64,000 bases of DNA, taken from Urbifossiella limnaea (GTDB lineage Bacteria > Planctomycetota > Planctomycetia > Gemmatales > Gemmataceae). The notes below the pieces were generated by a model, which made no database searches, had not been told where the DNA came from, and saw only the letters and a program-made list of their open reading frames with translations. Location of the stretch: positions 1,534,322 to 1,598,321 of the forward strand of contig NZ_CP036273.1 of the NCBI RefSeq assembly GCF_007747215.1. The letters run 5' to 3'. How positions within the stretch are numbered: position 1 is the first letter of the stretch; every line of letters begins with the position of its first letter. Position numbers and translations under genes: made by a program. This document shows positions 6,731 to 45,206 of the stretch, in pieces.

Positions 6731-8038
6731 GTGTTCCACCCGGTCGAGCTCGTCCTGGCCCTCGTCGCGGTCGCCGTCGGGCTCGGCGTCGTGGCCCGGC
6801 GGATGCGCGTGCCGTACCCCATCCTGCTGGTCGTCGGCGGGCTGTTGCTCGGCCTCCAGCCGTGGGCGCCGAGCGTCGCCCTCGACCCGCAGGTCGTGTT
6901 CCTCCTGTTCCTGCCGCCGCTCCTGTACGCCGCCGCGTTCCAGACCGAGTGGGCCGACTTCCGGCTGAACCTCCGCCCCATTGTGCTCCTGGCCGTCGGG
7001 CTCGTGCTGTTCACCACCGCCGTCGTCGCCGTGGTCGCCCACGCCGTCGTCGGCCTGCCGTGGCCGTGCGCGTTCGTGCTCGGCGCGATCGTGTCGCCGC
7101 CGGACGCCGTCGCGGCCGTGGCCGTCACGCGGCGCATCGGCGTGCCGCCGGTCATCATCACGCTGCTCGAGGGCGAGAGCCTGGTGAACGACGCCACCGC
7201 CCTGGTCGTGCTCCGGGTGGCGGTCGTGGCGGTGAGCGCGGGGTCTTTCTCGGTAGCCGACGCCGGCGTGCAGTTCCTCGTCGTCGCCGCCGGCGGCGTC
7301 GCCCTCGGCCTGGCCGGCGGGTGGCTCGCGGTGAAGCTACACGCCTGGCTCGACCGCGAGGAGCGGGCCGACGCCAAGCTGTTGATCACGGTCACGCTGC
7401 TGACGCCGTTCGCGGTGTACCTGCCGGCCGAGCACCTGCACGTGAGCGGCGTGCTGGCCGCGGTGACGGCGGGGTTGTGGGTCGGCAGCCGGTGCGAGCA
7501 GGTGTTCAGCCCGGCCCTGTACGAGGAGGCGCGGGCCGTGTGGGAGTGGGTCGAGTTCGTGCTGAACGCGCTGATCTTCATCCTGATCGGCTTCGCCCTC
7601 CGCCCGGTGCTCGACCAACTGAGCGACAACTACGACCCGCTCGACCTGCTGGGGTACTCCGCGGCGGTGAGCGCGGCCGTGATCCTGTCGCGGTTCGTGT
7701 GGGTGTTCCCGGGCGCCTACGTGCCGCGCTGGCTGGACCGCCGGCTCGGCCTGCCGACGACGCCGTACCCGCCACCGCGGGCCGTCTTCGTGGTCGGGTG
7801 GACGGGGATGCGCGGCGTGGTGTCGCTGGCCGCGGCGCTGGCCCTGCCGACCGTCACGGCCGACGGCAAGCCGTTCCAAGGCCGCGACCTGATCCAGTTC
7901 CTGACGTTCTGGGTGATCTTCGCCACGCTGGTGGGGCAGGGGCTGACGCTGCCGTGGGTGGTGCGCCGGCTCGGGCTCGGCGGCCCGCCAGTTCCACCGC
8001 CGGCCGAGGGCGCCCACGTTCCGGAGGACGAGCCATGA
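6731..8038 (+). CDS. CPA1-family Na+/H+ antiporter
   Basis: A polytopic inner-membrane exchanger of 435 residues with about 12 hydrophobic segments. The family's ion-binding signature is present as SPPDAVAAVAV (about 120-130) followed by EGESLVNDATA (about 147-157). The start is a GTG at 6731 giving MFHPVELVLALVAV. It is divergent from the kinase gene across 224 bases. Its stop overlaps the start of the next gene (ATGA at 8035-8038), so the two are probably co-translated. The family moves Na+ or K+ against protons; the exact ion cannot be told here. Confidence 0.92.
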   Translation: MFHPVELVLALVAVAVGLGVVARRMRVPYPILLVVGGLLLGLQPWAPSVALDPQVVFLLFLPPLLYAAAFQTEWADFRLNLRPIVLLAVGLVLFTTAVVAVVAHAVVGLPWPCAFVLGAIVSPPDAVAAVAVTRRIGVPPVIITLLEGESLVNDATALVVLRVAVVAVSAGSFSVADAGVQFLVVAAGGVALGLAGGWLAVKLHAWLDREERADAKLLITVTLLTPFAVYLPAEHLHVSGVLAAVTAGLWVGSRCEQVFSPALYEEARAVWEWVEFVLNALIFILIGFALRPVLDQLSDNYDPLDLLGYSAAVSAAVILSRFVWVFPGAYVPRWLDRRLGLPTTPYPPPRAVFVVGWTGMRGVVSLAAALALPTVTADGKPFQGRDLIQFLTFWVIFATLVGQGLTLPWVVRRLGLGGPPVPPPAEGAHVPEDEP

Positions 8039-19784: not shown

Positions 19785-21449
19785 ATGTCCGCCGCCCCGG
19801 CACTTCTGGCCGCGATCCGCGACCGCCCCGACGACGACACCCCGCGCCTGGCCTACGCCGACTGGCTCGACGACGCCGGCGACGCCGCCCGCGCCGAGTT
19901 CGTGCGCGTGCAGGTGCAGCTGGCCCGCCTCCCCGACCACGACCCCGCCCGCCCCGAACTGGAGGACCGCGAGCACGAGTTGCTGGCGGCGCACGAGCCC
20001 GCGTGGCTCGGCGTGCCGGGCGACGCGCTCACCGAGTGGGAGTGGGAGCGCGGCTTTGTGAACGAGGTGGCATGCGGCCCCGACGCCCTGGCCGAGCACG
20101 GGTCGGCCCTGTTCGCCGGCCACCCGGCCCGCCGCTGGCGGGTGGTCGGGCACCGGTCCGATTGCTGCGCCCAGGTTGCCCACGCTTGGGGCGACCGCAT
20201 CGAGGCGCTCGACCTCCGGGTCGCCCCTCTATCGACCGGCGCAACGGTGCAGTGGCTGGCCGACCACGACTGGTCCCGGCTCGCGGACGTCACACTGGGC
20301 GGGTTTGCCGACACCCGGTGGCAGGCCGATCCGGCCTCAGGGATGCGATTCCGCGCCCAGCTCCGAGCGTTCCACGCGAGCGGACCCACGGGAGAGTACC
20401 GACTCGGTCCGGTGGCCCGGTTCATCGAGCCGGCGGGGCTCGCCGACCTCGGCATCCAGGGCTGCCGCGCGACCGCTCCCGGGCTGGAGTGGCTCCTCGC
20501 CGCCGCGGCCTGCCGGCCGCTGACCCGACTCGACCTTTCTGACAGCAGCCTCGCACCGGACGCCCACCGGGCCTTCGCCCGCCCCGCGCCCGCGCTTACC
20601 GCCCTCGACGTGTCCAGCACCCCGCTCGCCGCGTTCGCACTCGAACCGCTGCTGAACGCCCCCGCGCTCGCCGGGCTGCGCGAGCTGAGCGCCAACCGCT
20701 GCGGGTCGGCCGCGGCCGTGGTGCGGGCGCTGCTCGGGTCGCCCTTCTGGTCGCAGGCCGAAACCCTCCGCCTCGCCGACGCCACCGCCCCCACGCGGCT
20801 CGTCGAGCCGCTGTTCGCCGCCGACGGCCCGGCCGCGCTCCGAACCCTCGACCTGTCGAACAACTTCCTTTACGACGCCGGCGTCGCCGACCTGTGCAAC
20901 GCGAACTGGTCCGGCTCCCTGACGTGGCTCGGCCTCGGCCGGAACTATCTGACGGACACCGCCGCCGAGCGCATCGCCGCGTCCGGCCGCTTCCGCCACC
21001 TGCGGACGCTCCACCTCAGCTACAACCACCCGCGCTGGCTGGAAGACAACGACTTCGACGGCCGCGTGACGGACCGCGGCGCGGTGGCGCTGGCGTCGAG
21101 CCCCGGGCTGGCGGCGCTGCGCGTGCTGACGCTCACCGGTGTCAGCCTGTCCGCGGCGGGCGTCGATGCGCTGCTGAATGGCCCGTTCTGGCGGCTGGCC
21201 GGGTTGGGCCTCGGTCGTTGCGAGCTGACGGCGGAGGCGGTGCGGGTGCTGGCCCGGTCGCCGCGACTGGCGCGGCTGTCGTTCCTCGACCTGAGCGGCA
21301 ACCGCGACCTGCGCGGCGACGCCCTCCGGCCGCTAGCCGAGAGCCCGTACCTGTCGCCGCTGCTGGAACTCGACATCCACGGCTGCGGCGCGTCGGAGGC
21401 GGTGGGGACCGAACTGCGGTCGCGGCTCGGGCGCCGGGTGGGGTTGTGA
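19785..21449 (+). CDS. TIGR02996-domain leucine-rich-repeat protein
   Basis: 554 residues with no signal peptide. The first 45 residues (LLAAIRDRPDDDTPRLAYAD, WLDDAGDAARAEFVRVQ) match the TIGR02996 'repeat-companion' domain, which is characteristic of Gemmata-type planctomycetes. The rest carries irregular leucine-rich repeats (LTRLDLSDSSL, LRTLDLSNNFLYDAGVADL, LTWLGLGRNYLTDTAAERI, LRTLHLSYNH, LSFLDLSGNRDL). It is probably a cytoplasmic interaction protein; partner unknown. The ATG at 19785 starts exactly at the domain. Confidence 0.9.
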   Translation: MSAAPALLAAIRDRPDDDTPRLAYADWLDDAGDAARAEFVRVQVQLARLPDHDPARPELEDREHELLAAHEPAWLGVPGDALTEWEWERGFVNEVACGPDALAEHGSALFAGHPARRWRVVGHRSDCCAQVAHAWGDRIEALDLRVAPLSTGATVQWLADHDWSRLADVTLGGFADTRWQADPASGMRFRAQLRAFHASGPTGEYRLGPVARFIEPAGLADLGIQGCRATAPGLEWLLAAAACRPLTRLDLSDSSLAPDAHRAFARPAPALTALDVSSTPLAAFALEPLLNAPALAGLRELSANRCGSAAAVVRALLGSPFWSQAETLRLADATAPTRLVEPLFAADGPAALRTLDLSNNFLYDAGVADLCNANWSGSLTWLGLGRNYLTDTAAERIAASGRFRHLRTLHLSYNHPRWLEDNDFDGRVTDRGAVALASSPGLAALRVLTLTGVSLSAAGVDALLNGPFWRLAGLGLGRCELTAEAVRVLARSPRLARLSFLDLSGNRDLRGDALRPLAESPYLSPLLELDIHGCGASEAVGTELRSRLGRRVGL

Positions 21450-30089: not shown

Positions 30090-31103
30090 TCACACCGTCC
30101 GCCCCAGGATCGGCGCGACCTGGCGGAGCTGCGCGAGCAGCTTCTCCAGCGTCGGGAAGTCGATCGTCTGCGGGCCGTCGGACAGCGCCTTGTCCGGCTC
30201 CGGGTGCGCCTCCACCAGCAGGCCGTCGGCCCCGCTCGCCAGCGCCGCCAGGCTCATCGCCGGCACGTAGGCCCACTTGCCGGTGCCGTGGCTCGGGTCC
30301 ACGAACACCGGCAGGTGCGACAGCGCCTTCGCCGGCGGCACCACCGACAGGTCGAGCGTGTTCCGGCTGTGGTCGGCGAACGTCCGCACGCCGCGCTCGC
30401 ACAGGATCACGTCGTAATTCCCGCCGGCGAGGATGTACTCGGCCGCCATCAGCCACTCGTCCAGCGTCGCGCTCATGCCGCGCTTCAGCAGCACCGGCTT
30501 GCGGCACTTGCCGACCCGCTTCAGCAGCGAGAAGTTCTGCATGTTGCGGGCGCCGATCTGGATCACGTCTGCCGCCTCCTCTACGGCCGACGCGTACTCC
30601 GTGTCCATCAATTCGGTCACGATGCCGACGCCGGTCTTCTCGCGCACCTTTGCCAGCAGCTTCAGCCCTTCCAGGCCCATCCCCTGGAAGGCGTAGGGGC
30701 TCGTCCGCGGCTTGAACGCCCCGGCGCGGAGCAGCTTCACGCCCTTCGATACGAGGAACTCGGCTGTGCGCATCACGAGCGCTTCGCTCTCGCACGAGCA
30801 CGGCCCGGCGACGACGGTGAACGTGGTCGGGCCGACGTTCACCCCGGCGATCGTCATGCGGGTGTCGTCCTTCTTCATCTCCCGGCTGGCGAGCTTGAAC
30901 GGCTTGGTGACGCGGATGGCCTGCTCGACGCCGTCGAGCCCCTCGAACAGACCCGGGTCGACGGCGGCGGTGTTGCCGGTCATGCCGATCGCGGTGCGCG
31001 TGGCCCCCGGCAGGACGTGCGGGGTGAGCCCCTGCGCGGTGATGACCGCGACCACCCGGTCGATCTGCGGGGCGGTGGCGTGCGACTGCATGACGACGAG
31101 CAT
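30090..31103 (-). CDS. aroF: 3-deoxy-7-phosphoheptulonate (DAHP) synthase, AroF/KDPS-like class
   Basis: 337 residues; first step of the shikimate pathway (phosphoenolpyruvate plus erythrose 4-phosphate). An N-terminal ferredoxin-like regulatory domain (1-70) precedes the TIM barrel: VVAGPCSCES, RAGAFKPRTSPYAFQGMG, MQNFSLLKRVGK, PVLLKRGMSATLDEW, and DPSHGTGKWAYVP with metal ligands. This is the Thermotoga-type enzyme with a feedback domain. It is divergent from the next gene across 73 bases. Confidence 0.95.
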   Translation of the reverse strand: MLVVMQSHATAPQIDRVVAVITAQGLTPHVLPGATRTAIGMTGNTAAVDPGLFEGLDGVEQAIRVTKPFKLASREMKKDDTRMTIAGVNVGPTTFTVVAGPCSCESEALVMRTAEFLVSKGVKLLRAGAFKPRTSPYAFQGMGLEGLKLLAKVREKTGVGIVTELMDTEYASAVEEAADVIQIGARNMQNFSLLKRVGKCRKPVLLKRGMSATLDEWLMAAEYILAGGNYDVILCERGVRTFADHSRNTLDLSVVPPAKALSHLPVFVDPSHGTGKWAYVPAMSLAALASGADGLLVEAHPEPDKALSDGPQTIDFPTLEKLLAQLRQVAPILGRTV

Positions 31104-32315: not shown

Positions 32316-32388
32316 GGGACCAAGGTGCTAGCGGCAGCATCGGGGACTCTTAATCCCACGGGTGGAGGTTCAAGTCCTCCTGGTCCCA
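32316..32388 (+). tRNA. tRNA-Lys (CTT)
   Basis: Acceptor GGGACCA/TGGTCCC pairs fully; T-arm GGAGG-TTCAAGT-CCTCC; anticodon loop CTCTTAA gives CTT. The universal T8 and A14 are exchanged to A8 and T14, and pair 27-43 is G-A. Discriminator A; followed by CTG, no CCA encoded. Confidence 0.85.
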
Positions 32389-32399
32389 CTGTTGAGTAT

Positions 32400-32470
32400 G
32401 CATCCGTGGTGTAGCGGAAACATACCGCCCTCCCACGACGGTGACGCGGGTTCGAGCCCCGCCGGGTGCT
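32400..32470 (+). tRNA. tRNA-Gly (CCC)
   Basis: Acceptor GCATCCG/CGGGTGC (one G-T), T-arm GCGGG-TTCGAGC-CCCGC, anticodon loop CTCCCAC. The anticodon stem CCGCC/GACGG has one C-A mismatch and position 38 is C. Discriminator T, usual for bacterial tRNA-Gly; followed by CTG. Confidence 0.82.
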
Positions 32471-32475
32471 CTGGG

Positions 32476-32510
32476 GAATGACGAATGACGAATGACGAAT
32501 GACGAATGAC
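32476..32510. repeat. five tandem copies of GAATGAC in a tRNA spacer
   Basis: Exact 7-nt unit repeated five times between two tRNA-Gly genes. A related tract (one variant AAATGAC and three GAATGAC) occupies the spacer at 32762-32789. Simple-sequence expansion; not a CRISPR. Confidence 0.9.
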
Positions 32511-32517
32511 GAGCAAC

Positions 32518-32589
32518 GCGCCTGTGGTGTTAATGGGAGCACGTCGGCGTGCCAAGTCGGCGGTGCGGGTTCGACCCCCGCCAGGCGCT
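32518..32589 (+). tRNA. tRNA-Gly (GCC)
   Basis: Acceptor GCGCCTG/CAGGCGC fully paired; D-stem GTGT/GCAC; anticodon loop GTGCCAA gives GCC; T-arm GCGGG-TTCGACC-CCCGC; discriminator T; CTG follows. Anticodon stem has two wobble pairs and position 32 is G. Confidence 0.85.
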
Positions 32590-32600
32590 CTGTCGGTAAT

Positions 32601-32671
32601 GCCTCTGTGTTGTAGTGGGAGCCAGCCGCTCTCGTAACGCGGAAGCGTGGGTTCGATTCCCACCGGAGGCT
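32601..32671 (+). tRNA. tRNA-Thr (CGT)
   Basis: Acceptor GCCTCTG/CGGAGGC; T-arm GTGGG-TTCGATT-CCCAC; anticodon loop CTCGTAA. D-stem TTGT/GCCA has a T-C mismatch and pair 31-39 is T-C. Discriminator T; CTG follows. Confidence 0.8.
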
Positions 32672-32684
32672 CTGGTCGGGAACC

Positions 32685-32755
32685 GCCCCCGTGTTGTAAC
32701 GGGAGCCTGCCGTCTTGGTATGGCGGAAGCGTGGGTTCGATTCCCACCGGGGGCT
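32685..32755 (+). tRNA. tRNA-Thr (GGT)
   Basis: Acceptor GCCCCCG/CGGGGGC perfect; anticodon stem CCGTC/GGCGG with loop TTGGTAT; T-arm GTGGG-TTCGATT-CCCAC. D-stem is weak, with only two pairs. Closely related to the preceding tRNA-Thr. Discriminator T; followed by CTT. Confidence 0.8.
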
Positions 32756-32796
32756 CTTAGAAAATGACGAATGACGAATGACGAATGACGAATTCC

Positions 32797-32870
32797 GACA
32801 CGGTACGCGAACTGGTATAGCGACCGGCCTTAAGCCCCGGGGCTTGTGGGTTCGACTCCCACCCGTGTCA
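32797..32870 (+). tRNA. tRNA with Leu anticodon (TAA), no long variable arm
   Basis: Acceptor GACACGG/CCGTGTC perfect; Leu-type D-arm (3-bp CGC/GCG with an 11-nt loop GAACTGGTATA); anticodon loop CTTAAGC gives TAA with G37; T-arm GTGGG-TTCGACT-CCCAC. Only 5 nt (GGCTT) lie between the anticodon and T stems, where tRNA-Leu normally has an arm of 10 nt or more. Discriminator A; followed by CAG. Confidence 0.72.
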
Positions 32871-32880
32871 CAGTGGGTCT

Positions 32881-32965
32881 GCCTTCGGACGTGCGGTGGT
32901 CCGCCGGGCCGCCTGTAAAGCGGCCGCCCCGTGGGGCAATGTGGGTTCGATTCCCACCCGGGGCA
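32881..32965 (+). tRNA. tRNA-Tyr (GTA)
   Basis: Anticodon stem GCCGC/GCGGC with loop CTGTAAA; long variable arm GCCCC/GGGGC as expected for bacterial tRNA-Tyr; T-arm GTGGG-TTCGATT-CCCAC. Best acceptor is GCCTTCG/CCGGGGC with one mismatch and two wobbles. The D region is hard to fold (GGAC/GTCC is possible but leaves extra bases). The 5' end is therefore uncertain. CTG follows. Confidence 0.65.
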
Positions 32966-32978
32966 CTGTCAGTGTAAC

Positions 32979-33050
32979 GGCTCGTTGGTCTAGTGGAAAT
33001 GATTCCAGAGTGTCAACCTGGAGACCGGGGTTCAATTCCCCGACGAGCCG
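32979..33050 (+). tRNA. tRNA-Asp (GTC)
   Basis: Acceptor GGCTCGT/ACGAGCC perfect; discriminator G73, an Asp identity element; anticodon loop GTGTCAA; T-arm CGGGG-TTCAATT-CCCCG. Pair 31-39 is A-C. CTG follows. Confidence 0.88.
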
Positions 33051-33062
33051 CTGATGGGGTAT

Positions 33063-33134
33063 GGCCCGTTCGTCCAGCGGACAGGACGCCTGGTTCTCAA
33101 CCAGAAAACGGGGGTTCGATTCCCCCACGGGTCA
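33063..33134 (+). tRNA. tRNA-Glu (CTC)
   Basis: Acceptor GGCCCGT/ACGGGTC, D-stem GTCC/GGAC, anticodon loop TTCTCAA, T-arm GGGGG-TTCGATT-CCCCC, discriminator A. A close match to ordinary bacterial tRNA-Glu except C-A at pair 27-43. CTG follows. Confidence 0.9.
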
Positions 33135-33143
33135 CTGGTGTTG

Positions 33144-33225
33144 ATGACTGATGATCGAGGATTGATGATTGAAGCACGGCCTGGCTTCCGGAAATCTTCG
33201 GTCCTCGATCACCAATCATCAATAC
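33144..33225. repeat. imperfect palindrome in a tRNA spacer
   Basis: ATTGATGATTG and CAATCATCAAT-like arms, plus a GGATTTCCG-type centre, lie in the 96-nt spacer between tRNA-Glu and tRNA-Leu. No gene. Confidence 0.65.
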
Positions 33226-33230
33226 GAACC

Positions 33231-33304
33231 GGTGATGTAGACCAACGGCAGGAGTCGCCACGCTCAGAACGTGGACAGTGTGGGTTCGAATCCCACCGTC
33301 ACCA
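33231..33304 (+). tRNA. tRNA with Leu anticodon (CAG), no long variable arm
   Basis: Acceptor GGTGATG/CGTCACC; Leu-type 3-bp D-stem GAC/GTC with an 11-nt loop; anticodon stem CCACG/CGTGG perfect, loop CTCAGAA; T-arm GTGGG-TTCGAAT-CCCAC; discriminator A. The variable region is only ACAGT, 5 nt. CTG follows. Confidence 0.8.
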
Positions 33305-33316
33305 CTGGAAGTGAAT

Positions 33317-33384
33317 TGCGGACGGGCGGGCGCCCGGTCGGGTCTCATAAGCCTGAAGGCCGGGTTCGACTCCCGGGTCCGCAA
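33317..33384 (+). tRNA. tRNA with Met anticodon (CAT), shortened D-arm
   Basis: Acceptor TGCGGAC/GTCCGCA perfect; anticodon loop CTCATAA; T-arm CCGGG-TTCGACT-CCCGG; discriminator A. Only 15 nt lie between acceptor and anticodon stem, foldable as GGG/CCC with a 6-nt loop. There is no GGG:CCC anticodon-stem signature, so it is not an initiator. A CAT anticodon could also be a tRNA-Ile2 after modification. CTG follows. Confidence 0.72.
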
Positions 33385-33390
33385 CTGACT

Positions 33391-33471
33391 GACCTCGTGC
33401 TGGAACTGGTATACAGGTCCGGTTGAGAGCCGGTGCCGAGAGGCGTGTGGGTTCGACTCCCACCGGGGTCA
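33391..33471 (+). tRNA. tRNA-Leu (GAG)
   Basis: Acceptor GACCTCG/CGGGGTC; 3-bp D-stem CTG/CAG with loop GAACTGGTATA, shared with the TAA tRNA; anticodon loop TTGAGAG; a proper variable arm GCC-GAGA-GGC; T-arm GTGGG-TTCGACT-CCCAC; discriminator A. The only Leu gene here with class II form. Begins 6 nt after the Met tRNA. CTG follows. Confidence 0.86.
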
Positions 33472-33492
33472 CTGCGGCTACAGCCGCACAAC

Positions 33493-33561
33493 GGGGCCGC
33501 CCGCGGGCGGGGGCTGTGTCTTGCAAACACGGACGCGTGGGTTCAACTCCCCGCGGCTCCA
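33493..33561 (+). tRNA. tRNA-Ala (TGC), short D-arm and bulged T-stem
   Basis: Acceptor GGGGCCG/CGGCTCC with the G3:T70 pair that defines Ala identity, discriminator A. Anticodon stem TGTGT/ACACG, loop CTTGCAA. Only 15 nt between acceptor and anticodon stems. The T-stem pairs best as GCG-(T)-GGG with CCC-CGC, leaving a bulged T. CTG follows. Confidence 0.75.
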
Positions 33562-33565
33562 CTGC

Positions 33566-33648
33566 GGGGGACAGGAGCCAGGGGACGGGAGACAGGAAAC
33601 GACCGCCAGTACTGCGTTTCCTGTCTCCCGTCCCCTGCTCCCTGACTC
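33566..33648. repeat. long palindrome in a tRNA spacer
   Basis: GGGACAGGAG...GGGACGGGAGACAGGAAACG on the left pairs with CGTTTCCTGTCTCCCGTCCC...CTCCTG on the right. About 35-bp imperfect arms in the 94-nt spacer between tRNA-Ala and tRNA-Ser. Confidence 0.85.
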
Positions 33649-33655
33649 CTGACAC

Positions 33656-33739
33656 GGAAGGGTGCGCGGAACTGGTAACGCGCCGGCCTGCTAAGTCGGG
33701 GCCCGCAAGGGCGTGAGGGTTCGACTCCCTCTCCTTCCG
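33656..33739 (+). tRNA. tRNA-Ser (GCT)
   Basis: Acceptor GGAAGGG/TCCTTCC; discriminator G; 3-bp D-stem CGC/GCG; anticodon stem CCGGC/GTCGG, loop CTGCTAA; variable arm GCCC-GCAA-GGGC; T-arm GAGGG-TTCGACT-CCCTC. A well-formed class II tRNA. CTG follows. Confidence 0.92.
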
Positions 33740-33751
33740 CTGACGGTGCAT

Positions 33752-33824
33752 ACCCTGGTGGTCCAACGGATCACGACACCACCCTCCGAAGGTGGGGATC
33801 CAGGTTCGACTCCTGGCCGGGGTA
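33752..33824 (+). tRNA. tRNA-Arg (CCG)
   Basis: Acceptor ACCCTGG/CCGGGGT; anticodon stem CCACC/GGTGG perfect, loop CTCCGAA; T-arm CCAGG-TTCGACT-CCTGG; discriminator A. D-stem GTCC/CGAC has one C-C mismatch. CTG follows. Confidence 0.88.
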
Positions 33825-33827
33825 CTG

Positions 33828-33880
33828 CGGGAGGGATGAGGGATGAGAATCGGTGTCTTCCCTCATCCCTCATCCCTCCC
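33828..33880. repeat. GGGATGA palindrome in a tRNA spacer
   Basis: GGGAGGGATGAGGGATGAG and its complement CTCATCCCTCATCCCTCCC flank a short centre in the 61-nt spacer between tRNA-Arg and tRNA-Val. Confidence 0.9.
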
Positions 33881-33885
33881 CAGAT

Positions 33886-33958
33886 GGTCCCGTGGTCCAG
33901 CGGCGACGACGCCTCCCTGACGCGGAGGAGAGCGGTGGTTCGAGTCCACCCGGGATCA
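33886..33958 (+). tRNA. tRNA-Val (GAC)
   Basis: Acceptor GGTCCCG/CGGGATC; anticodon stem CCTCC/GGAGG perfect, loop CTGACGC; T-arm GGTGG-TTCGAGT-CCACC; discriminator A. D-stem GTCC/CGAC with a C-C mismatch, as in tRNA-Arg. CTG follows, in a palindromic spacer (TGCCCCGACCGGGGCA). Confidence 0.88.
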
Positions 33959-33978
33959 CTGCCCCGACCGGGGCACAT

Positions 33979-34053
33979 GCGGCGTGTGGTGTAACGGCTT
34001 GCACGCGGCGCTGTGAACGCCGAGGAGCGGGGTTCGACTCCCCTCACTGCCGC
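33979..34053 (+). tRNA. tRNA-His (GTG) with bulged acceptor stem
   Basis: The extra G at -1 opposite C73 is encoded, the hallmark of tRNA-His. Acceptor CGGCGTG pairs with CA-TGCCG if one C (34047) bulges out. D-stem GTGT/GCAC, anticodon stem CGGCG/CGCCG with loop CTGTGAA, T-arm CGGGG-TTCGACT-CCCCT (last pair C-T). CTG follows. Confidence 0.82.
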
Positions 34054-34060
34054 CTGACAC

Positions 34061-34130
34061 AGAGGGATGCTCCTGGGAGAGCACGCGGCCTCCAAAGCCG
34101 CCCCACAGGGTTCGAATCCTTGTCCCTCTG
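34061..34130 (+). tRNA. tRNA-Trp (CCA)
   Basis: Acceptor AGAGGGA/TCCCTCT perfect, discriminator G73 as in bacterial tRNA-Trp; D-stem GCTC/GAGC; anticodon stem GCGGC/GCCGC, loop CTCCAAA; T-arm CAGGG-TTCGAAT-CCTTG. Last gene of the array, 7 nt after tRNA-His; followed by CTC. Confidence 0.88.
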
Positions 34131-34142
34131 CTCGCGCCGACG

Positions 34143-34739
34143 TTAGCCCGTTCGGTCGGGGGCGGTGTGCAGCATCCGGTGGCCCTTCACCAGGTACTGC
34201 ACGCCGCTCCCGACCGTCGCCGCCACCATCAACCAGAACAGCACCAGCTGCACCGGTTCCAGCAGCGCCAGCACGTCCGCCGAGAAGCCTTCCGTTCGCC
34301 ACCACTGGATCAGGAACACGCCGATCAGCACGGCGCACTGAAACCCCATCTTCAGCTTGCCGAACCAGTCGGCGCCGAACTTCTGGCCCGTCGCCTCGAT
34401 CACCCCGCGCACGGCCGTGACGATCAACTCGCGGCTCAGCACCAGCACCGCGGCCCACGTCGGGATGCCGGCCTCCGGTACCGGGGCCAGGTACACGAAC
34501 GTGCCGCACACCAGCACCTTGTCCGTCACCGTGTCGAGGTTGCGGCCGACCAGCGTCAGCGGGCCGAACCGCCGCGCCCACCAGCCGTCGAGCCAGTCGG
34601 TGAACGCCGCGACGAGGAACAGCAGCAGGCCGGCGAGCCACCACCGCTGCACGACGCAGACGAACAGCACGACCGCGAGCGGGATGCGCGCGAACGACAG
34701 GAGGTTGGGGATGTTGGCGAGCGATTCGGGGGCCGGCAT
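34143..34739 (-). CDS. pgsA: CDP-diacylglycerol-glycerol-3-phosphate 3-phosphatidyltransferase
   Basis: 198 residues, integral membrane. The CDP-alcohol phosphatidyltransferase motif D-G-x2-A-R-x8-G-x3-D-x3-D is exact: DGWWARRFGPLTLVGRNLD followed by TVTD. NIPNLLSFARIPLAVVLF is the usual N-terminus of PgsA; I start at the ATG at 34739. It makes phosphatidylglycerophosphate, the precursor of phosphatidylglycerol and cardiolipin. It is convergent with the tRNA array, its stop being 12 bases past the last tRNA. Confidence 0.9.
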   Translation of the reverse strand: MPAPESLANIPNLLSFARIPLAVVLFVCVVQRWWLAGLLLFLVAAFTDWLDGWWARRFGPLTLVGRNLDTVTDKVLVCGTFVYLAPVPEAGIPTWAAVLVLSRELIVTAVRGVIEATGQKFGADWFGKLKMGFQCAVLIGVFLIQWWRTEGFSADVLALLEPVQLVLFWLMVAATVGSGVQYLVKGHRMLHTAPDRTG

Positions 34740-34766
34740 GAGGTCCAGTTTACGGACCACGCCGCG

Positions 34767-39993: not shown

Positions 39994-40106
39994 GGCGCAC
40001 TCGCGGGGTAACGTTTCGGCTATCGTACCACGCCCCCACCCGGTTGCACCCCCGGCCGCGGCGGCGTACAACGGCCCCCACCCCGCCCCCTCCCCGGAGC
40101 CCTCCC

Positions 40107-43100
40107 ATGCCCGGCGGTCGTGCCCTGCTTGTCGCCCTCCCGCTTGCCGTGGCCGTCGCCGCGTGGCAGCGCCCCGAGCCCGCCGCGGCGCAGCCTGCCG
40201 CCTTCCGCCTGGAGCGCGGCGACCACGTCTGCTTCGTCGGCAACACCCTCGCCGAGCGGATGCAGCACGACGGCTGGGTCGAAACGTACCTCCACGCCCG
40301 CCACCCCGAGCACGACCTGACGGTGCGCAACCTCGGGTTCAGCGGCGACGAGGTCGGCGGGTACACGGCGCAACCCGACTTCAACAAGCGGCTCCGGTCG
40401 CAGGACTTCGGCAGTGCCGACCAGTGGCTCGCCGGCGCGGCGCCGGTGCCGAACCCCGGCGCCGTTGGCGACAAGAGCGCCGTGAAGCTCAACCGGTTCG
40501 AGAACGTCGGCACCAACGCGGACGTGATTTTCGCCTTCTTCGGCGGCAACGAGAGCTGGGCCGGGGAGGCGGGGCTGCCGAAGTTCAAGCAGCAACTCGG
40601 CGAGTTCGTCGAGCACGTCCGCGCCCAGCGCTACAACGGCAAGACCGCCCCGCAGGTGGTGCTGTTCACCCCGACCGCGGTCGAGAACCACAAGAGCCCA
40701 AACCTGCCGCGCGGCGACGACCGCAACAAGCAGCTCGCCCTGTACGCCGCCGCCGTGAAGGAGGTTGCCGCGAACGCCCGCGTGCCGGTCGTGGACCTGT
40801 ACACGCCCACGCTCGCCCGGTTCGCCGAGGCAATGGAGCGGCTGACGATCAACGGCGTCCACTTCACTGAGGACGGGAACCGCGTCCTCGCCGCCCTCAT
40901 CGACGGATACCTCTTCCCCACCGACGGCAAGTACCTCCCGCCGCCCGACGACGTGCTGAACCGCATCCGCCCCGCGGTGGTGGAGAAGAACGCACTGTTC
41001 TTCCAGCGCTACCGCGCCACCGACGGGTACAGCGTGTTCGGCGGCCGGGCGTGGCTGAAGTTCGTGAACGGGCAGACGAACTACGAGGTCGCCCAGCGCG
41101 AGCTCGAAGTCATCGACCAGATGGTCCGCAACCGCGACAAGGTGGTGTGGGCCGCCGCCCGCGGGCGTGTCGTGAAGGCCGACGACTCCAACCTCCCGCC
41201 GCTGATTCCGGTCGTCACCAACAAGCCGGGGAAGGGGCCGGGCGGCACCCACCTGTTCCTCACCGGCGAGGAGTCGATCAAGAGCATGACCGTGGCCAAG
41301 GGGCTGAAGGTCACGCTGTTCGCCGACGAGCAGACGTTCCCGGAGTTGATCAACCCGGTGCAGATGGCGTTCAGCCCCGACGGCAAGCTGTACGTCGCCG
41401 TGTGGCCGACGTACCCGCACTGGACGCCGGGGCAGCCGATGAACGACAAGCTACTCGTCCTGGAGGACACGAACGGCGACGGCAAGGCCGACAAGATGAC
41501 CGTGTTCGCCGACGGCCTCCACAACCCGACCGGGTTCGAGTTCGCCAACGGCGGCGTGCTGCTGGCCGGCGCCCCGGACCTGTGGTTTCTGAAGGACACC
41601 GACGGCGACGGCAAGGCCGACGTGCGGCAGCGCGTGGTCCACGGTCTCGACACGGCCGACACCCACCACACGGCCAACAGCTTCGTCACCGACCCGGGCG
41701 GAGCCATCTACTTCCAGGAAGGGACGTTCCACCACTCGCAGGTCGAAGACCCCTACGGCCCGCCGAAGCGCGTCGCCAACGGCGCCGTGTTCCGCTACGA
41801 GCCGCGCACACAGCGGTTCGACGTGTACGTCACGTTCGGCTTCGCCAACCCGCACGGCCACGTTTTCGACCGCTGGGGCCAGGACATCGTGATCGACGGC
41901 ACCGGGGCGGTGCCGTTTCACGCGCCGCTGTTCAGCGGTCACCTGCCGTTCCCGATCAAGCACGGCAGCCCGCCGCACGTCTACCAGCAGAAGACGCGGC
42001 CCTGCGCCGGTATGGAGGTGCTGTCGAGCCGGCACTTCCCGCCGGAGTACGACGGCAACCTGCTGGTCACCAACGTGATCGGCTTCCAGGGCATCCTGCG
42101 GTACAAGCTGACCGACAGCGGCAGCAGCCTCGGGGCGGAGGAGCAGACGCCGCTCGTGAGCAGCACCGACCCGAACTTCCGCCCGAGCGACCTGCGGGTC
42201 GGGCCGGACGGGGCGGTGTACTTCACCGACTGGCACAACCCGATCATCGGCCACATGCAGCACAACCTCCGCGACCCGAGCCGGAACCGCACCCACGGCC
42301 GCGTCTACAAGGTGACCGCCGAGGGGCGCGAGCCGTCGAAGTCGCCTGCCGTCGCCGGCCGGATGATTTCCGACCTGCTGCCGCTGCTGACGCACCCGGA
42401 GGACCGCGTGCGGAGCCGCGTGCGCGCCGAGTTGGGGGCGCGCGACACCGACGCCGTCATGCTGGCACTGAAGGACTGGGTGCGGATGATCACGTCCGGC
42501 GCCGTGCCGCTTCAGGGCGAGGAACTGGAACACGCGCTGCTCGAAGCGGCGTGGCTGCGGCAGGCGCACAACGTCGTCGATCCGACGGCACTCGAGCGCG
42601 TGCTGCGCTCGCCCGACTTCCGCGCCCGCGCCGCGGCCGTGCGCATCCTGACGTACCAGCGCGAGCGCATCCCCGACGCGCTGGACCGCCTCAAGACCGC
42701 CGCCGCGGACGAGCACCCGCGGGTACGGCTGATGGCCGTGTGGGGCGCCAGTTACTTCACGACCGCGGAGGCGGCCGAGGTGGTGTTCATCGCCCAGGAG
42801 AAGCCGACCGACCAGTACCTGACGTTCCTCATGGGCGAGACCATGAAGGCGCTCGAGCCACTGGTGCGGGCCGCGGTCGCGGCGAAGCGGCCGATCGCGT
42901 TCACCACGCCGGCCGGCGCTCGCTACTTCCTCCGCGCCGTGGACACCGACCAGCTTCTGCGGATGGAGAAGACCGCGGCCGTGAGCGCCGAACTCCTCGC
43001 CCGCCCCGGCGTGCGCGACGAGGCCCGCCGTACGGCGGCCACCGACCTGGCCGCCCGCACCGGCCGGCCGCTCGCGTCGGTGCTGATCGAGGCCATCCGC

Positions 43101-45206
43101 GACCACGACGCCCGCGAGAACGCTGCCGACGGCGTGACCTTCGACCTGTTCCGCCTCCTGCCCACGTCCCCGGCCGAGGCGCCGGACCTCCATGCCGCCG
43201 TCGGTCGGCTCGCCGCGACCGGCAAGCACGCCCTCACCCGGCAGCTGGCGTTCGCCACGATGGTCACCCGCGACGGCGTGGAGCCGGCGTGGAACGCCGG
43301 GATGCAGACCGTCAGGACGCTGCAAGACCTCGTCGCGGCGATGCCGCTGGTCCGCGACCCCGGACAGCGGGCGGAGCTGTACCCGAAGGTGGAATCGCTC
43401 CTGACGGGGCTGCCCGCAAAGCTCAAGACGGCTGACGCCGGCAAGACCGTCCGCGGTCGCTTCGTGCGGGTCGAACTACCCGGCAAGCAGCGGACGCTGA
43501 CGCTGGCCGAGGTCGAGGTGCTGTCCGACGGGAAGAACGTGGCGCTGCGGAAGGCCGCGAAGCAGGTGAACACCGGCTACGGCGGCGCGGCCGGGCGGGC
43601 GGTCGATGGGAACGCCACCGGCGAGTACAGTGCCGGCACCTCGACACACACCCAGGAAGGCACCGACGAGGCGTGGTGGGAAGTCGATCTGGGCCGGGAG
43701 TACCCGATCGAGCTGGTCCGCGTGTTCAACCGCACCGACGGCAACCTCGGCAGCCGGCTCAACAACTTCACGCTGAAGGTGCTCGACGCCGACCGCGGCG
43801 TCGCGTTCCAGCAACTGAAGAACCCCGCGCCGAAGGGGAAGGCCGACGTCGCCGTCGGCGCCGCCAACCCGGAGCGCGTCGTGCGCCGCTCGGCGATGCT
43901 GGCGCTGGCGAGCGTCCGCGGCAAGGAGGCGGACGCCTTCACCGCCGTCTCCAAATTCGTGGCCGACGCCGACGAGCGGCCCGCGGCCGTGTCGGCGCTG
44001 CTGCGCATCCCCGCGAAGGAGTGGCCGAAGGACCGCGCGAAGCCGCTACTCGACGTGGTGATGGCGAGTATCCGCGCCCTCCCGGCGGATCAGAAGACGA
44101 CGCCCGCGGCGCTCGACGCGATGCAGTTCGGCGAGGCACTGGCCGGCCTGCTGCCGCCCGAAGAAGCCCGCCGCGCCCGCCGCGAGTTGAGTGACATCGG
44201 CGTCCGCGTCGTGCGCGTCGGCACGCTCACCGACCAGATGCTCTACAGCACGGATCGCCTCGTGGTGCAGGCGGGCCGGCCGGTGGAGTTCGTGTTCGAG
44301 AACACGGACATCATGCCGCACAACTTCGTGATCACCCGGCCCGGGGCCCTGGCCGAGGTCGGCAACCTCGCCGAGGCCTTCGCCACGCAGCCCGGCGCGG
44401 CCGAGAACCACTACGTACCGCCGGCGCCGCCCGGCAGTATTCTCCTCGCCAGCAACCTCCTCGCGCCGCAACAGGCGCAGCAGCTCCGCTTCCAGGCGCC
44501 GGCCGCGCCGGGCGTGTACCCCTACGTCTGCACGTACCCCGGCCACTGGCGGCGGATGCACGGCGCGCTCTACGTCGTGGCCGACCTCGACGCCTACCTG
44601 GAGAACCCGGAGGCGTACCTCGCCAGGAACCCGACCGAGGCGCAGGACGACCTGCTGAAGCACATCCGCCCGCGCACCGAGTGGAAGTTCGACGACCTGG
44701 CGGGAGCCGTCGGCGAGATGGACAAGGCCGGCGGTCGCAGCTTCGCCAACGGCCGGCAGATGTTCACCGTGGCGACGTGCGCCGCGTGCCACAAGCTCGG
44801 CGGGCAGGGAAACGAGTTCGGCCCCGACCTGGCGAAACTCGACGCCAAGGTGTTCCCGAACAGCACCGAACTGCTGCGCCACGTCCTCGACCCGTCGCTG
44901 CGGATCGAAGACAAGTTCGCCACGTTCCGCTTCGTGAAGACGGACGACACGGTCGTCACCGGGATGATTCTGACCGAGAAGGACGGCGTGGTGAAGGTGA
45001 TCGAGAACCCGCTGGCCGCCGCGACGGCGAAGGAGCTGAAGCTGGCCGACGTCGCCAGCCGGACGAAGGCGGCCACGTCGATGATGCCGCGGGGCCTGCT
45101 CGACCGCCTGAGCCGCGACGAGGTGCTGGACCTGCTGGCGTACGTGCGCGCCGCGGGCGACGCCCGGCACCGGCTGTTCGGCGCGGGGCACGACCACCAC
45201 CACTGA
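40107..45206 (+). CDS. 1,699-residue exported fusion: SGNH, PVC-type propeller, HEAT, discoidin, cupredoxin, cytochrome c
   Basis: A signal peptide opens the protein. Domains in order: SGNH-hydrolase-like (36-300; block I is FVGNTL and block V is NGVHF, so the Ser and Asp of the triad are not obvious); beta-propeller of the PVC 'membrane-bound dehydrogenase' type (about 400-740) with DTNGDGKADK and DTDGDGKADV calcium-like loops; HEAT-like helices (740-1110); F5/8C discoidin (1115-1245, WWEVDLGREYPIELVRVFNR); azurin-like cupredoxin (1365-1495) with His1405, Cys1475, His1480 and Met1484 in CTYPGHWRRM; cytochrome c (CAACH at 1558-1562). The His-rich end is GHDHHH. Electron transfer between copper and haem in one chain is likely; substrate unknown. 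Confidence 0.93.
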   Translation: MPGGRALLVALPLAVAVAAWQRPEPAAAQPAAFRLERGDHVCFVGNTLAERMQHDGWVETYLHARHPEHDLTVRNLGFSGDEVGGYTAQPDFNKRLRSQDFGSADQWLAGAAPVPNPGAVGDKSAVKLNRFENVGTNADVIFAFFGGNESWAGEAGLPKFKQQLGEFVEHVRAQRYNGKTAPQVVLFTPTAVENHKSPNLPRGDDRNKQLALYAAAVKEVAANARVPVVDLYTPTLARFAEAMERLTINGVHFTEDGNRVLAALIDGYLFPTDGKYLPPPDDVLNRIRPAVVEKNALFFQRYRATDGYSVFGGRAWLKFVNGQTNYEVAQRELEVIDQMVRNRDKVVWAAARGRVVKADDSNLPPLIPVVTNKPGKGPGGTHLFLTGEESIKSMTVAKGLKVTLFADEQTFPELINPVQMAFSPDGKLYVAVWPTYPHWTPGQPMNDKLLVLEDTNGDGKADKMTVFADGLHNPTGFEFANGGVLLAGAPDLWFLKDTDGDGKADVRQRVVHGLDTADTHHTANSFVTDPGGAIYFQEGTFHHSQVEDPYGPPKRVANGAVFRYEPRTQRFDVYVTFGFANPHGHVFDRWGQDIVIDGTGAVPFHAPLFSGHLPFPIKHGSPPHVYQQKTRPCAGMEVLSSRHFPPEYDGNLLVTNVIGFQGILRYKLTDSGSSLGAEEQTPLVSSTDPNFRPSDLRVGPDGAVYFTDWHNPIIGHMQHNLRDPSRNRTHGRVYKVTAEGREPSKSPAVAGRMISDLLPLLTHPEDRVRSRVRAELGARDTDAVMLALKDWVRMITSGAVPLQGEELEHALLEAAWLRQAHNVVDPTALERVLRSPDFRARAAAVRILTYQRERIPDALDRLKTAAADEHPRVRLMAVWGASYFTTAEAAEVVFIAQEKPTDQYLTFLMGETMKALEPLVRAAVAAKRPIAFTTPAGARYFLRAVDTDQLLRMEKTAAVSAELLARPGVRDEARRTAATDLAARTGRPLASVLIEAIRDHDARENAADGVTFDLFRLLPTSPAEAPDLHAAVGRLAATGKHALTRQLAFATMVTRDGVEPAWNAGMQTVRTLQDLVAAMPLVRDPGQRAELYPKVESLLTGLPAKLKTADAGKTVRGRFVRVELPGKQRTLTLAEVEVLSDGKNVALRKAAKQVNTGYGGAAGRAVDGNATGEYSAGTSTHTQEGTDEAWWEVDLGREYPIELVRVFNRTDGNLGSRLNNFTLKVLDADRGVAFQQLKNPAPKGKADVAVGAANPERVVRRSAMLALASVRGKEADAFTAVSKFVADADERPAAVSALLRIPAKEWPKDRAKPLLDVVMASIRALPADQKTTPAALDAMQFGEALAGLLPPEEARRARRELSDIGVRVVRVGTLTDQMLYSTDRLVVQAGRPVEFVFENTDIMPHNFVITRPGALAEVGNLAEAFATQPGAAENHYVPPAPPGSILLASNLLAPQQAQQLRFQAPAAPGVYPYVCTYPGHWRRMHGALYVVADLDAYLENPEAYLARNPTEAQDDLLKHIRPRTEWKFDDLAGAVGEMDKAGGRSFANGRQMFTVATCAACHKLGGQGNEFGPDLAKLDAKVFPNSTELLRHVLDPSLRIEDKFATFRFVKTDDTVVTGMILTEKDGVVKVIENPLAAATAKELKLADVASRTKAATSMMPRGLLDRLSRDEVLDLLAYVRAAGDARHRLFGAGHDHHH

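Follow-up and report, generated by a model that had tools for sequence, protein, structure and literature searches.

The 64,000-nucleotide stretch of the Urbifossiella limnaea genome analysed here (the window, G000:C1:1534322-1598321 of a 7.8-Mb single contig) carries an array of 18 plus-strand tRNA-like genes at positions 32316 to 34130, none of which encodes a CCA end (0/18). Directly after the discriminator base (position 73), the trailers of these genes mostly start with C-T, as do nearly all tRNA trailers in the genome. This C-U start probably forms the 3' side of the site at which RNase Z cuts CCA-less pre-tRNAs. The signal is real and was correctly described by the first-pass annotation of the window, and for the most part it is a 3'-processing rule of the whole genome, of which the array shows one portion. 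Because C-U is common to nearly all tRNAs of the genome, and pyrimidine-U to those of the class, it is not an array feature. Among the three explanations offered in the annotation, a 3'-processing signal is the best supported, since C-T occurs genome-wide and is kept at positions 74 and 75 while the flanks drift. On its idea of an anti-determinant against premature CCA addition, what bears is that C74 by itself reportedly inhibits ordinary RNase Z (PMC3161902, PMC7479834).

Trailer starts in the array and in the rest of the genome

The array genes were called with ARAGORN (17 of the 18) and Rfam, and the Ala-TGC gene (33493-33561), missed by ARAGORN and coinciding with a weak tmRNA-like Rfam match, was placed by eye. 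A recount of the triplets at positions 74 to 76 agrees with the annotation, which had seen CTG at the place of CCA in 15 of 18 genes, with three named exceptions and C first in all: CTG is found 15 times, CTT, CAG and CTC once each, and C74 in 18/18. On the plus strand, CTG follows Lys-CTT (32389..32391), Gly-CCC (32471..32473), Gly-GCC (32590..32592), Thr-CGT (32672..32674), Tyr-GTA (32966..32968), Asp-GTC (33051..33053), Glu-CTC (33135..33137), Leu-CAG (33305..33307), Met-CAT (33385..33387), Leu-GAG (33472..33474), Ala-TGC (33562..33564), Ser-GCT (33740..33742), Arg-CCG (33825..33827), Val-GAC (33959..33961) and His-GTG (34054..34056). The exceptions are CTT after Thr-GGT (32756..32758), CAG after Leu-TAA (32871..32873) and CTC after Trp-CCA at the array end (34131..34133). 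The count of 15/18 assumes that His-GTG has the G-1:C73 pair, a usual feature of tRNA-His, with its discriminator C73 at 34053; the His end given by Rfam yields 14/18. For comparison, CTG stands at 7 of the 402 other positions in the spacers and at 1,079 of 63,998 in the whole window, and the binomial probability of at least 15 CTG among 18 is about 3e-24. The upstream ends, described in the annotation as favouring A followed by C or T, have C or T at position -1 in 18/18 and A at -2 in 13/18. Two further ARAGORN matches, at 7942-8014 and 21189-21264, were excluded from the array count; both are absent from the 69 tRNA matches of Rfam in the genome and are probably false.

The 55 non-array tRNAs among these 69 matches were used for comparison. 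Their trailers start with CTC (24), CTG (14), CTT (4), CCT (2) and eleven single triplets, including one CCA. C74 is present in 51/55 and T75 in 45/55, with no difference from the array at either position (p=0.57 and p=0.27, respectively). Over the 73 genes taken together, 69 have C74 and the remaining 4 have T, and the information content is 1.69, 1.19 and 0.35 bits at positions 74, 75 and 76, and at most 0.11 bits beyond. A shifted check, using a pattern with C-T at 75-76, gave 1 match in the genome. C-T is thus not confined to the array genes and is no mark of the array, being as frequent in the 55 others, which rules out an array-specific signal for these two bases. The third base behaves differently, with G76 in 16/18 array genes versus 16/55 non-array genes (p=1.3e-5), as does the whole CTG (15/18 versus 14/55, p=2e-5). 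The question raised in the annotation, whether non-array tRNAs carry CTG equally often, is therefore answered in two parts: non-array genes have C-T just as often, and the whole CTG less often.

Upstream of the genes, A at -2 is found in 13/18 array genes versus 15/55 others (p=0.0015). With A favoured there, position -2 cannot pair with base 74 in the array; such pairing is possible in 0/18 array genes versus 17/55 others. The array-biased features are G76 and A-2 only, and C74-T75 is genome-wide. Elsewhere in the genome, a four-gene tRNA cluster (L005, G000:C1:6384321-6384638) has the trailers CTG, CAG, CTC and CTC. A further locus (L045, G000:C1:6454609-6454681, minus strand) repeats the 3' half of the Lys-TTT tRNA at 6479600 behind a 5' half that is unrelated to it, and may be what is left of an integration site.

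Trailers of relatives and of other lineages

In a blastn search with the array, 29 of 41 genomes gave matches (its own included), many through spacer repeats only; twenty of the regions were taken and hold 135 Rfam tRNA matches. CTG is frequent in most arrays of the family (G002 12/18, G003 6/12, G005 5/6, G008 5/12, G009 5/10, G015 5/8), low in two of them (G021 and G023, 2/6 each), and mixed in smaller array pieces (G004 1/5, G020 1/4). The arrays of two other families favour CTT (G035 9/12, G038 4/11). The annotation had asked whether the arrays of relatives lack CTG, and the answer is mixed, with CTG common in most arrays of the family and CTT preferred in the two others. In eight family relatives, whose pooled genes are mutually non-independent, G76 is again more frequent in arrays (49/78) than in TAGCTCA-type genes (20/91, p=7e-8), and smaller differences are seen for C74 (67/78 versus 61/91, p=0.007) and T75 (69/78 versus 69/91, p=0.046).

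Twenty-three orthologous pairs between the array and four relatives of the genus, with a body identity of at least 0.78, were compared position by position. The trailers are identical in 22, 20 and 13 pairs at 74, 75 and 76, and in 7, 3, 11, 5, 7, 5 and 10 pairs at 77 to 83. The make-up of the columns alone predicts 22.0, 20.2 and 13.5 at 74-76 and 5.7-9.1 at 77-83. Since the spacers are near chance past 76 and positions 74-75 are fixed, these two bases reflect a constraint on the site; neither descent by copying nor the edge of a recombining unit accounts for them. The comparison rules out copy descent as the cause and bears out the view of the annotation that the conservation is not due to copy descent alone. 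The boundary of a recombining unit, also proposed there, finds no support, given the C-T shared with scattered single tRNAs and orthologue spacers that are randomised right after 76. A broader form of this idea holds that CTG was inherited with the array units, as ancestral gene-plus-trailer copies or as a unit boundary, with no function at the RNA level. The array bias of G76 in the genome and in the family agrees with it, as does the different third base in the arrays of other families. The scattered genes that carry C-T equally already disfavour it for 74-75, the spacers are near chance past 76, and even at 76 the agreement of 13/23 equals the column expectation, so that we consider such inheritance quite unlikely. 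G76 is a column preference and not a gene-wise memory. A phage origin of the array was rejected as well: blastn against 50,697 phage records returned 16, which among the matches listed cover at most 7% of the query and fall on tRNA genes where annotated, and a pattern scan of viral contigs matched one contig, of which 601 bases around the match were inspected.

Across the class, 260 TAGCTCA-type trailers from 26 genomes have T75 in 221/260, C74 in 158/260, T74 in 77/260, A or G at 74 in 25/260 and CCA in 0/260. Other phyla were sampled with 10 genomes of one set and 8 of 10 of another, and there C or T is the first base in 158/158 CCA-less trailers; in another sample, which the pattern used had biased, the count was 171/175. 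Base 74 is C in 34/34 trailers of Actinobacteria and T in 35/35 of Enterococcus and Streptococcus, while Cyanobacteria have T 46 and C 17 times, Gemmatimonadota C 13 and T 7 times, a flavobacterium C 5 times and a chloroflexus C once. T75 is preferred in Gemmatimonadota too (12/20), and C-T is therefore not peculiar to the class. C74 tends to rise with GC content (rho 0.41, p=0.095, 18 genomes). This trend and the GC-rich actinobacteria are what one would expect if C74 were left over from a lost CCA and persisted by chance or because of high GC. This explanation is very unlikely, given that T75, although an A-T base, persists in a window of 71% GC, that there is no signal from 77 onward, and that positions 77-83 drift beside the fixed 74-75.

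RNase Z candidates and proposed 3'-end maturation

The best RNase Z candidate of the genome is encoded at G000:C1:2973863-2974714 (L117:1330-2184, plus strand) and comprises 284 amino acids. It scores 51.6-55.5 bits against TIGR02651, below the cut-off of 293, and is similar to rice RNase ZS1 (6e-55) and to Thermotoga maritima tRNase Z (4e-8). The KL motif KLKxxYxxLxGxxIxxLK is present as KLKDEYVGLPGNQIRDLK, and the patterns used found no PxKxRN, HEAT or HST motif in it. The enzyme is probably an RNase Z of the plant/Thermotoga (TM) type. A second RNase Z candidate of the genome is a better fit to other MBL hydrolases. One nucleotidyltransferase gene (L140:709-1947, minus strand) matches PF01743 above the cut-off, and the best NCBIfam model for its 412-residue frame is a CCA tRNA nucleotidyltransferase, under the cut-off. 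The genome thus holds both an RNase Z homologue and a putative CCA-adding enzyme.

Of 70 chosen genomes of the phylum, 54 have a homologue of the TM-type candidate, the sole match of G017 being weak (29 bits). The 16 genomes with no match are 12 of CCA-encoding families together with G006, G011, G009 (79% complete) and G023 (in 1,500 contigs). G006 and G011 carry a bacterial-type RNase Z (278 and 293 bits) and are CCA-less though they lack the TM type; G015 and G020 have both types. The bacterial-type enzymes of these four genomes (L120-L123) show no strict PxKxRN by the pattern used. Among the matches listed, some families of the wider phylum encode CCA: counted by eye, CCA stands in 25/26 rows from 11 genomes without the TM-type enzyme and in 1/41 rows from 17 out-of-class genomes with it. 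As this split follows deep kinship, it is no independent test. C74 is more frequent in TM-only genomes (136/205) than in holders of the bacterial type (10/32; pooled p=3e-4, uncorrected for relatedness).

Published accounts describe related systems. The cut made by RNase Z falls after the discriminator, and cytidines at this place impair the enzyme (PMC7479834); a Streptococcus whose tRNAs are all CCA-less depends on it (PMC8549757). As in the maturation by RNase Z of B. subtilis and Streptococcus, the genome combines CCA-less genes, an RNase Z homologue, a CCA-adding enzyme and a pyrimidine after the discriminator (PMC7479834, PMC8549757); it differs in its C followed by T, whereas Streptococcus and Enterococcus start with T, and in its TM-type instead of bacterial-type enzyme. 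By similarity, KL motif and C74 without CCA, it also resembles the plant TM-type tRNase Z(S) and chloroplast system, in which TM-type enzymes are predicted to be free of the C74/CCA block, C74 is encoded by some chloroplast tRNA genes, and a fraction from spinach makes its cut after C74 (PMC3161902). Chloroplast genes with C74 or more amount to 17-32% (PMC3161902), versus 69/73 here, and the TM-type enzyme would here serve a bacterial cell, unlike in plants.

If the array is transcribed, RNase P would make the 5' ends of its tRNAs and RNase Z would cut the CCA-less precursors between 73 and 74, directly after the discriminator, whereupon the CCA-adding enzyme would build C-C-A. The cutting enzyme would probably be the TM-type RNase Z described above. 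Enzymes of this type are predicted to act unhindered by C74 or CCA, which would allow C74 to become general. G76 and the A-pyrimidine before the gene may be weaker, array-biased preferences beside the two cut sites. A signal that lies flush with the expected cut, spans two bases, occurs in clustered and scattered genes and is kept amid drift is most simply read as a cleavage determinant. On this evidence, the trailer rule would be a lineage-specific variant of known CCA-less processing, with cleavage predicted from sequence.

A different use of the same enzyme, a half-templated CCA, would have the TM-type RNase Z cut after C74, which would be retained; the nucleotidyltransferase would add C75 and A76, and U75 would be the first base removed. 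The TM-type enzyme and C74 in 69/73 genes of the genome fit this scheme. The genes with T, A or G at 74 (102/260 in the class) or with T (4/73 in the genome) cannot keep base 74, and T75 is more constant than C74 class-wide, which makes the scheme doubtful. Similarly doubtful, as a joint proposal, is a half-templated system in which base 74 co-evolved with the RNase Z type, T74 going with enzymes that C74 blocks and C74-U75 with those of the plant type, and in which arrays have a stricter boundary code, with A-pyrimidine ahead of each gene and C-U-G behind it. Bacteria with encoded CCA use RNase T or RNase PH (PMC8549757), and exonucleases rather than RNase Z might trim the 3' ends back to C. 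Such trimming leaves no role for the conserved U75, T74 genes exist, and the literature consulted assigns CCA-less tRNAs to RNase Z, so that it appears extremely unlikely.

Several points weigh against cleavage by RNase Z directly before C-U. Of the bases at 74, C is reported to inhibit ordinary RNase Z most strongly (PMC3161902). C74 is also tied only loosely to the type of enzyme: actinobacteria, for which trailers were counted, have C74 throughout, and G006, with the bacterial-type enzyme only, has it in 4/6. Both make it less likely that the type of RNase Z by itself brings about C74. A possible effect of GC content points the same way, and the whole proposal is a prediction from sequence.

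Surroundings of the array and implications

The array lies between a DAHP synthase gene some way upstream (30090-31103, minus strand) and a CDP-alcohol phosphatidyltransferase gene downstream (34143-34760, minus strand). All 18 anticodons were also found outside it by ARAGORN, so it is redundant by anticodon. Dense tRNA genes and anticodon redundancy with the genome recall bacterial tRNA array units (PMC5966550 and others), from which the array differs in a trailer rule common to scattered genes and in that no mobile element is established here.

Ordinary Leu tRNAs have a long variable arm. The genes with the Leu anticodons TAA (32797-32870) and CAG (33231-33304) have 74 nucleotides and a short variable loop, and their amino acid is uncertain. 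Three long spacers contain large palindromes, imperfect or perfect (33138-33225, 33567-33649 and 33829-33880, with arms of 33, 35 and 19 nucleotides), and a tandem AATGACG repeat occupies spacers at 32476-32514 and 32763-32794 and recurs in relatives and at several sites elsewhere in the genome. Minus-strand open frames at 32370-32747 and 33299-33766, antisense to the tRNAs and with repeats such as GIEPTLPPYQDGRL, are probably spurious translations. Farther away, 40044-45206 encodes a PVC-type heme-binding CxxCH protein (TIGR02604, 222 bits, cut-off 122), an indication of the PVC group.

The literature, searched by titles and abstracts, gave no description of a C-U trailer rule in the phylum, which is weak evidence of novelty; the extract of PMC5143459 has no mention of Planctomycet, C74, position 74, partial or RNase Z. 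The lineage combines C74 on nearly every tRNA gene with a plant-type RNase Z, though C74 is reported elsewhere as the main block to RNase Z, and this enzyme beside the C74 rule is a reason for bench interest. The survey that defined the TM type could not state its spread beyond plants and Thermotoga (PMC3161902), and homologues in most of the chosen genomes of one bacterial phylum bear on this point. Should C74 and the type of RNase Z be causally linked, one could tell from the base behind the discriminator what kind of RNase Z a lineage uses, and sequence would suffice to judge whether array tRNAs can be processed.

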